A stretch of DNA of 64,000 nucleotides from Syntrophobotulus glycolicus DSM 8271 (GTDB lineage: Bacteria > Bacillota > Desulfitobacteriia > Desulfitobacteriales > Syntrophobotulaceae), in assembly GCF_000190635.1 (NCBI RefSeq), contig NC_015172.1:2666001-2730000 (forward strand), read 5' to 3'. Shown here in pieces: positions 40,548 through 46,486 of this stretch. The position numbers were made by a program, and so were the translations under genes. Positions within the stretch are counted from its first letter, which is position 1, and each line of letters begins with the position of its first letter. The notes beneath the pieces are model-generated. The model made no database searches. It was not told the DNA's origin and worked only from the letters and a program-made list of their open reading frames with translations.

Positions 40548-41144
40548 CTATCTTTGATAGATTACACCATTTTCAGTAACGAGTAAAGACATTCTCTGAT
40601 CATGCTCCTCCGTGCTGATCTTACCTAAAACCTGGCACTCAAACGCCAGGCCGATGATTGGGGTCCCTGCGGGAAGCAGGGGCAGAAACCGGTCATAATA
40701 CCCCCCGCCATAGCCTATCCTGCGGCCTTCCTGATCAAAAACCAGCCCGGGCACAAGGACGGCCTCAATCTCTTCCGGTTGAACCGGTCTGGCGCAAGTT
40801 TCCTTAGGTTCCCGGATACCCATGTAGCCGGCCGCCAGATCATCTTCCAGGGAAGCTATCTCACAGGGAATAATCCTGTTCTCCTTACAAAGAGGAACCA
40901 CTAATCTTTTCCCCATCCCAATTGTTTTTCTGGCCAAAGAGGTCGTTTCAACTTCATCCCGGATCTCCAAGTATAACATGACAGATTGTGCCTGGCAGAA
41001 CTGAGGCAGGGTCAGAACACACTCCATAATCCGACGACTTTTTGTCCTGCGTTCTTCAGGAGTCAGGTTGGCCCGGTATCGCCCGATTTTTTGGCGCAGG
41101 TTATCTTTTTCTTCAGCAGCCATCTTTTTCTCCTTAATCATCAA
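40548..41144 (-). CDS. 5-formyltetrahydrofolate cyclo-ligase
   Basis: 198 residues. ATP-binding and substrate motifs include RYRANLTPEERRTKSRRIM and VLVPGLVFDQEGRRIGYGGGYYDRFL, the family signature. It converts 5-formyl-THF to 5,10-methenyl-THF. It is the first gene of the formate dehydrogenase operon, so formate oxidation/reduction and folate one-carbon metabolism are co-expressed. An internal ATG eight codons in is an alternative start. Confidence 0.92.
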   Translation of the reverse strand: MMIKEKKMAAEEKDNLRQKIGRYRANLTPEERRTKSRRIMECVLTLPQFCQAQSVMLYLEIRDEVETTSLARKTIGMGKRLVVPLCKENRIIPCEIASLEDDLAAGYMGIREPKETCARPVQPEEIEAVLVPGLVFDQEGRRIGYGGGYYDRFLPLLPAGTPIIGLAFECQVLGKISTEEHDQRMSLLVTENGVIYQR

Positions 41145-41459
41145 TCCCCGAATCAGTGATCACTTGTAAGCTTTTTGTTCAATTCGACATATATTTTTTA
41201 TTTTCAAGTAAATGATGGATTATTTTTATTTATTTTTTAAACTTTAAGCGTTATCCCCAGATCAAGTCTGGAAAAGCAGGGCGATTGATCACTCTTATCC
41301 ACATTATCCACAAGTCCTGTGGATAAGTTATTCTTTCCTTTATCTTGAATAAGGCTCTTAAAATTTAAAAAATAACTGTCCAACGAAAAAATAATTCCAT
41401 CATTATTCAAAAAAGATTAAAGTTCAGCGAGTCATTTCTACAGAAATATTACAATTTTC
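41145..41459. other. 315-bp AT-rich intergenic region with DnaA boxes
   Basis: No gene seen. It has long T/A runs (about 41185-41245 and 41360-41410) on both sides of the DnaA-box cluster at 41251-41326. It holds the promoter side of the cyclo-ligase operon. Confidence 0.6.
41251..41326. promoter_or_regulatory. DnaA-box cluster
   Basis: Two tandem consensus boxes TTATCCACA (41295-41303 and 41304-41312), an inverted one TGTGGATAA (41318-41326) and a near match TTATCCCCA (41251-41259). DnaA probably binds here; there is no dnaA or dnaN gene in the window. Confidence 0.75.
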
Positions 41460-42479
41460 CTATAAATTTAAACCCGGAACAGCATTTAATTTCCAATTTG
41501 CATAATCTCCGGCCAAAAAGTGAAAATAGCCCGCCATGGCAATCATGGCTCCATTATCCGTGCAGAAAACCGGCGAAGGGAAAATCAAGGGAATATTTCT
41601 TGCCGACAATTCACTCCCCATGCTTTTTCTCAGCAGAGAATTGGCCGCTACCCCCCCGGCCAGGGCAAAGGTCCTCACTTCATACCTGTCCAAGGCCCGG
41701 ATGGATTTTCGGACCAGTACATCTATTGCCGCTTGCTGAAAAGAAGCCGCAAGATGATTAACATCCACAGGTTCTTTTTTCATTTTGGCTTTGTTGAGAA
41801 TATTGAGGGCGGCAGACTTCATTCCACTGAAACTGAAATCAAGGCTGCCCGGTTCAAGCATCGCCCTTGGCAATTCATAAGCACAAGGGTCCCCCTGCAA
41901 GGCCGCTTTCTCGATTAACGGCCCTCCGGGATATCCAAACCCCAGAGCCCGGGCAATCTTGTCCAGCGCTTCACCGGCGGCATCGTCCCTGGTCCCCCCA
42001 AGGACTTCATAATCCAAATGACCCCGAAAAAGAATAAGATTGGTATGCCCTCCCGAAACCAAAAGGGCCATCATCGGAAAAACAATCTCCTGCCGTTCTA
42101 TAAAATTGGCATAAATATGCCCCTCCAAATGATTGACTGCGATTAAGGGTATCCCTGCCGCATAAGCCATTGCTTTTGCTCCGGCAACTCCCACCAGTAA
42201 GGAACCCACAAGTCCCGGTCCATAAGTAACGGCAATAGCGGAAAGATCGGAAAATCCAATTCCGGCTTCCCTCAATGCCTGTCCGACAACCTCTCCCAAA
42301 TGAAGACAATGTTCCCTTGAAGCAATTTCAGGCACAACCCCTCCATATTTTTGGTGGGTTTTGACTTGTGAAGAAATCACATGGCTCTTCAAATCCGTTC
42401 CATTAAATAAAACAGCTGCCGATGTTTCATCACAGCTTGTCTCAATTCCGAGAATCACAACATCTTTAGTTGCTTTCAA
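41460..42479 (-). CDS. tsaD: tRNA N6-threonylcarbamoyladenosine transferase TsaD
   Basis: 339 residues. ILGIETSCDETSAAVLF, the metal-binding HxxxH motif in SREHCLHL, YGPGLVGSLLVG, and ALAGGVAANSLLR are family signatures. It transfers threonylcarbamoyl to A37 of ANN-decoding tRNAs, with TsaB and TsaE. It is the last gene of the tsaE-tsaB-rimI-tsaD cluster, and a DnaA-box cluster follows. Confidence 0.97.
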   Translation of the reverse strand: MKATKDVVILGIETSCDETSAAVLFNGTDLKSHVISSQVKTHQKYGGVVPEIASREHCLHLGEVVGQALREAGIGFSDLSAIAVTYGPGLVGSLLVGVAGAKAMAYAAGIPLIAVNHLEGHIYANFIERQEIVFPMMALLVSGGHTNLILFRGHLDYEVLGGTRDDAAGEALDKIARALGFGYPGGPLIEKAALQGDPCAYELPRAMLEPGSLDFSFSGMKSAALNILNKAKMKKEPVDVNHLAASFQQAAIDVLVRKSIRALDRYEVRTFALAGGVAANSLLRKSMGSELSARNIPLIFPSPVFCTDNGAMIAMAGYFHFLAGDYANWKLNAVPGLNL

Positions 42480-45710: not shown

Positions 45711-46061
45711 TCAAATCTCAGTCAAACCCAGACTGACTTCGATCGCTTCATCAACCCTGAGCATAACCTCCGGGTCTAAAACCGCAACTTTTTCTTTTAA
45801 CCTGCTTTTATCGATCGTCCTGATTTGCTCAGTAAGAATTACGGAATCCTTTTCTAATCCGCTGCGCTTTGATTTCACTTCCACATGTGTCGGCAGCTTG
45901 GCCTTGGAAATTTGGGACGTGATTGCCGCAATAATGGTCGTCGGACTGTATTGATTCCCAATATTGTTTTGGATAACCAACACAGGTCTGGTTCCCCCCT
46001 GTTCCGAGCCAATGACGGGGTTTAATTCAGCATAGTATATTTCCCCGCGTTTAATACTCAT
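45711..46061 (-). CDS. ndoA: mRNA interferase EndoA (MazF/PemK family)
   Basis: 116 residues from ATG 46061 (GGAG upstream). [45 protein letters not shown] and [15 protein letters not shown] match chromosomal EndoA of Firmicutes. Sequence-specific RNase. It overlaps its antitoxin gene by 11 bp. Confidence 0.95.
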
Positions 46062-46338
46062 ATCCCACGCTCCATGCCATTTTCCTTTCATAGCATATTG
46101 TGGCTTCTTCTTCTGCAATGCACAAATCCTTTGCTATTCTCAAATTAATATTTGCCATCTCCTGATATCCTAAACGCATTTGCTCTCGTATTCCCGCCCT
46201 TCGTCTCTCCAGCAGCACACTGTATATCGCCTCTATAATAAAATCGTTTCTATCTTTTTTTTCTGTTGAGACTAAAATATCCACTTCCTCAATAAGGCTT
46301 TGCGGTAAAGACACGATAATGCGTTTATGTTCCGCCAC
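46051..46338 (-). CDS. ndoAI: EndoAI antitoxin (ribbon-helix-helix)
   Basis: 95 residues from GTG 46338, which has AGGAGGT seven bases upstream; an ORF start at 46365 would include that site. N-terminal RHH segment [25 protein letters not shown] binds DNA; the helical C-terminus blocks EndoA. In Bacilli this pair follows alr; here alr is 11 kb away. Confidence 0.9.
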
Positions 46339-46486
46339 GCCAAGCACCTCCTGACAATTAGACACACTATATTTTATTATAGCTATTTACTAGGAAAAGT
46401 GTCAACGATCTCACGCCTTCAGATGGGTGATTCGGAAGAAAAAGTCCTCCTGAACGCCATGTAAATTATGGTAATGGCCTGATTTC

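Follow-up and report, generated by a model that had tools for sequence, protein, structure and literature searches.

A conserved DnaA-box cluster downstream of tsaD in Syntrophobotulus glycolicus and other Bacillota as a candidate DnaA-sequestering locus

Main finding

A cluster of DnaA boxes is located outside oriC and directly 3' of tsaD (gcp) in Syntrophobotulus glycolicus, as is the gcp-type cluster of Bacillus subtilis. Judging from sequence comparison, the tsaD locus is very probably a selected DnaA-binding site. With a probability of roughly two in three, it would be a B. subtilis-type DnaA-sequestering locus, the positional ortholog of gcp/ydiF, and would delay re-initiation of replication.

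DnaA boxes in the S. glycolicus window

The analyzed window is a 64-kb stretch (2666001-2730000) of the closed 3,406,739-bp chromosome. An exact match scan confirmed the three consensus boxes, two in tandem and one inverted, and the near match which the earlier note on this DNA had described by tsaD (Table 1). No further exact match to TTATCCACA was found anywhere in the window. Boxes with one mismatch numbered 23 vs. 15.6 expected, which is no overall enrichment, and it is the clustering that is unusual. In the whole genome, 61 exact copies of TTATCCACA were found vs. 22 for the reversed control. At least three exact boxes per ~100 bp occurred at three places in the genome: 2440649-2440745 (L081:8650-8746), which follows a YqfO/Nif3-like gene near an apparent RNase P RNA; 2707295-2707326, which is the tsaD cluster in genome coordinates; and 3299097-3299156 (L082:9098-9157), a second conserved cluster located after comFC. 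Another cluster was seen in relatives of the same order (L250:7047-7142, L248:7438-7532, and L265:6816-6991), located between an argininosuccinate lyase-like gene and nicotinate phosphoribosyltransferase/NAD synthase genes.

Table 1. Features of the region 3' of tsaD in S. glycolicus, given in window positions.
Feature	Position	Strand	Remarks
5-formyltetrahydrofolate (5-FTHF) cyclo-ligase gene, downstream neighbour	40548-41144	-	Pfam PF01812, E 1.9e-37
AT-rich intergenic gap holding the cluster	41145-41459	.	315 bp, from tsaD to the cyclo-ligase gene
Whole DnaA-box cluster 3' of tsaD	41251-41326	.	Three exact boxes and one near match
Near-match box TTATCCCCA	41251-41259	+	One mismatch; 44 bp from the doublet
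Exact DnaA box TTATCCACA	41295-41303	+	Reads against tsaD; first box in the abutted doublet TTATCCACATTATCCACA
Exact DnaA box TTATCCACA	41304-41312	+	Reads against tsaD; second half of the doublet TTATCCACATTATCCACA
Exact DnaA box TTATCCACA, inverted	41318-41326	-	Reads with tsaD
tsaD (gcp), anchor gene	41460-42479	-	TIGR03723, E 3.1e-127; match at genome 2707520-2708455

The inverted box beside the doublet is also present in related loci (e.g., L088, L093, and L112). A terminator-like hairpin was called at 41304-41326, so the inverted pair could be read as an intrinsic terminator, or the whole arrangement as chance. The hairpin lies on the + strand with both neighbouring genes on the - strand, boxes in relatives are mostly direct repeats, and shuffled sequences are expected to hold none, which makes this account extremely unlikely. 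As a terminator, the site was rejected, the sole box-made hairpin being on the wrong strand and not the conserved feature. No Rfam match to a structured RNA was found at the cluster. Elsewhere in the window, near the tsaE-tsaB-rimI-tsaD run, positions 45711-46365 appear from the sequence to encode a MazF-like toxin, preceded by a small partner resembling ribbon-helix-helix proteins.

Position on the chromosome

The gene dnaA is found at 89-1384, at the start of the chromosome, and the cluster lies 699 kb from oriC, which corresponds to 0.41 of the replication arm. GC skew is negative throughout 10-64 kb of the window. The observation that no oriC genes are near was thereby borne out, and the GC-skew check that had been proposed for excluding an origin gave no sign switch at the cluster, with dnaA elsewhere. 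Because of the dnaA position and the GC skew, the cluster is not regarded as an origin; neither the dnaA/dnaN neighbourhood nor the skew switch of an oriC was found there. It resembles oriC in that DnaA boxes are clustered within AT-rich DNA. The AT-rich flanks and a number of exact boxes no lower than at oriC would suit a secondary or relic replication origin, a reading that is hardly credible given the distance of dnaA, the skew without a switch, and the co-direction of tsaD with replication from oriC in all 26 genomes with a placed dnaA. At the organism's own oriC, upstream of dnaA, a single exact TTATCCACA occurs alongside two TTATACACA boxes, so that the tsaD cluster is the richer of the two in consensus boxes.

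Along the arm, tsaD was positioned at about 0.19-0.73 (median 0.35), with a value of 0.30 in B. subtilis. A fixed distance from the origin was rejected, as tsaD is origin-proximal yet variable; genomes lacking boxes were too few for comparison.

Conservation across Bacillota

Loci were gathered regardless of boxes from close relatives, the class, an even draw over the phylum, the class of a Clostridia genome (Oribacterium), and a Bacilli-like class, the latter labelled by strong YabA matches and a convergent ABC-F gene in several members, as in B. subtilis. The phylum grouping takes in all these sets, several genomes recur between lists with identical coordinates, and the sets overlap slightly, with a few genomes counted in two. 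The phylum set consists of 70 genomes from 47 families of Bacillota.

Of the 70 phylum genomes, 47 had one or more exact boxes (111 in total) in the first 500 bp past the tsaD stop, and 35 had at least two. The same interval held an exact box in 24/35 genomes of the class (95 boxes), 16/35 of the Clostridia set, and 21/30 of the Bacilli-like set. Dinucleotide-shuffled versions of this interval gave 0.05-0.6 expected boxes per set (0.6 for the phylum) and never two or more. Box density after tsaD was 1.7-5.4 per kb vs. 0.02-0.05 elsewhere in the same Bacillota loci, a difference of ~100-fold; the enrichment relative to the shuffles was likewise ~100-fold. By family, 33 of 47 included a genome carrying one or more exact boxes in the 700 bp after tsaD, and 26 included one carrying at least two. 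About one third of the sampled genomes have no exact box after tsaD, some of them with ordinary GC content. Some absences are displacements, since in L156 and L168 the cluster was found 2.1-2.8 kb further downstream. Among tsaD loci outside Bacillota, an exact box within 500 bp occurred in 0/68, a count that is indicative only because the base composition of this outgroup differs. Dependence on YabA was not clear, as boxes were present in 32/41 genomes with YabA and 15/29 without; YabA is present in the S. glycolicus genome.

The earlier note had mentioned a B. subtilis cluster near gcp and conjectured that the position is conserved over a long distance. The former corresponds to the published gcp/ydiF region (PMC4447404), and the latter holds for most Bacillota families sampled. 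The comparison of tsaD downstream regions in Firmicutes that it had proposed went beyond the claim, with conservation that is phylum-wide and extends to orientation and helical phasing.

Controls and motif-first search

Upstream of tsaD, only 0-1 boxes were found in sets of 30 and 29 genomes. The tsaC/ywlC gene of B. subtilis has a DnaA-box cluster. Nevertheless, none of 30 tsaC loci carried a box in either 500-bp flank, and a general rule by which t6A genes carry DnaA boxes was rejected. After comFC, a box was present within 500 bp in 12 of 28 phylum genomes, six of which had at least two. A second conserved site thus exists at comFC, yet the effect is not a general one. The comFC cluster was also seen in L246, L247, L252, L253, and L255, often between comFC and hpf and in a mostly fixed orientation.

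In a search that started from the motif, all exact doublets TTATCCACATTATCCACA were listed in 159 genomes, yielding 83 doublets and none for the reversed control. Thirty-six of the 83, in 35 genomes, lay 67-302 bp beyond the end of the tsaD match, in every case oriented opposite to tsaD. The remaining doublets include one displaced from tsaD and seven after comFC.

Footprint and helical phasing

In an alignment of 16 tsaD 3' regions of one genus, box columns were 97% conserved vs. 68% for the other columns. Spacings between boxes of the same orientation were collected from 65 distinct genomes with at least two boxes reading against tsaD, and included 9, 21-22, 42-44, 52-54, 62-64, and 74 bp. 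With the abutted 9-bp doublet excluded, these spacings followed a period of ~10.8 bp (R 0.51 vs. a null mean of 0.09 and maximum of 0.21), and none of the 2000 jittered nulls reached this value. The arrangement of a doublet with a further box 42-45 bp on is shared by 26 of 126 distinct genomes, including S. glycolicus. The footprint and phasing indicate that the boxes of the relatives are under selection as binding sites, and we infer that boxes on one face fit a cooperative assembly of DnaA. Between the box groups of one genus (L088, L090, L093, and others), a non-box motif, GCGG(T/C)TT, is conserved and could bind a second factor.

Neighbouring genes

While tsaD is constant, its neighbours vary. 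Among 68 sampled loci, the downstream ORF encoded Lgt (11), a radical SAM protein (11), ABC-F (7), 5-FTHF cyclo-ligase (4), or others, so that the neighbour seen in S. glycolicus is not conserved. Because the downstream gene varies, the cluster is taken to travel with tsaD. Downstream ORFs were found in both orientations, and in 23 of 106 box-bearing loci with such an ORF it was convergent, as is ydiF.

These findings bear on the possibility that bound DnaA controls expression of the next gene or stops transcripts running on out of the tsaD operon, coupling expression to replication. In B. subtilis, several of the clusters are places where DnaA acts as a transcription factor (PMC4447404), and the S. 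glycolicus cluster lies upstream of the cyclo-ligase gene, which reads in the same direction. The variety of downstream genes speaks against such control, as do the 23 convergent loci, which leave no promoter to regulate; transcription control is thus considered improbable. A promoter of a fixed downstream gene was rejected, as the downstream genes vary. The constancy of tsaD, co-directional with replication and origin-proximal, beside changing neighbours speaks for a site set by its chromosomal place rather than for control of a single target gene. As an anchor, the end of a stable, origin-proximal gene may simply be a safe place.

Comparison with known systems

The B. subtilis region listed as "downstream of gcp; downstream of ydiF" ranked fourth among the top 20 DnaA-binding regions in vitro. 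It has 10 sites and a Kd of 0.15 uM for ATP-DnaA vs. 0.33 for ADP-DnaA, and at 55 nM recovery differed 16-fold in favour of ATP-DnaA (PMC4447404). The S. glycolicus cluster shares with it (Okumura 2012; Smith and Grossman 2015) the location 3' of tsaD/gcp and several consensus boxes, and in several Bacilli-like relatives the neighbour is still a convergent ABC-F gene matching ydiF. It differs in having three exact boxes and one near match vs. 10 sites and another downstream gene, and in being known here from sequence. Removal of six non-oriC clusters led to early initiation in the work of Okumura 2012, as covered by reviews (PMC5295017, PMC13220808), while one review states that no cluster with a significant regulatory role has been identified in B. 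subtilis (PMC5295017).

Like E. coli datA, the tsaD cluster is a non-oriC DnaA-box cluster thought to reduce free ATP-DnaA; unlike it, datA uses IHF and sits elsewhere. The Streptomyces D78 cluster is another set of DnaA boxes outside oriC, proposed to titrate DnaA, but it belongs to another phylum and occupies another place. The S. glycolicus DnaA aligned end to end with 8btg, which we take to be B. subtilis DnaA, including the motif GGRDHTTVIHA of the DNA-binding domain IV.

Beyond holding DnaA, the complex might speed nucleotide hydrolysis or exchange in the manner of E. coli datA/DARS. The ordered, helically phased boxes, a possible partner at the conserved GCGG motif of one genus, and the preference for ATP-DnaA in B. 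subtilis (PMC4447404) are in keeping with such an active nucleotide switch. However, IHF and datA/DARS loci are reported absent from B. subtilis in a 2026 review (PMC13220808), and the literature search turned up no biochemical work showing that any Bacillota cluster promotes hydrolysis or exchange, leaving the switch a quite improbable reading.

Proposed role in replication control

The sequestering locus would work through cooperative binding of DnaA to the boxes. Because boxes of the same orientation are spaced by whole helical turns, the monomers would share one face of the DNA within an ordered complex. Since the locus lies ~0.2-0.6 along the replication arm, it would be duplicated midway through replication, and the extra copies would keep ATP-DnaA, probably the preferred form at the cluster as in B. 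subtilis, from oriC and so delay re-initiation. For S. glycolicus, that DnaA binds the boxes and that this restrains initiation are both presumed by analogy with B. subtilis. A wider proposal, that the tsaD and comFC clusters together form an ancestral, Bacillota-wide replication control in which an ordered ATP-DnaA nucleoprotein switch is the counterpart of datA, is unlikely.

The kind of cluster is known from B. subtilis, and to our knowledge its phylum-wide conserved position, orientation, and phasing have not been described, though an earlier statement for Bacillus is possible. The limited collection of literature searched yielded no description of such conservation by tsaD beyond Bacillus.

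Bacillota are not known to have Hda, SeqA, or a datA counterpart with which to limit initiation, and the role of the B. subtilis clusters is disputed. The tsaD cluster is probably an old, shared replication brake across most of Bacillota, hitherto known only from B. subtilis. If its place, orientation, and helical phasing are kept throughout the phylum, the cluster is probably important, and it would offer a single, easily located site for tests in any Bacillota species, with the conserved spacing as a concrete model of the DnaA complex.
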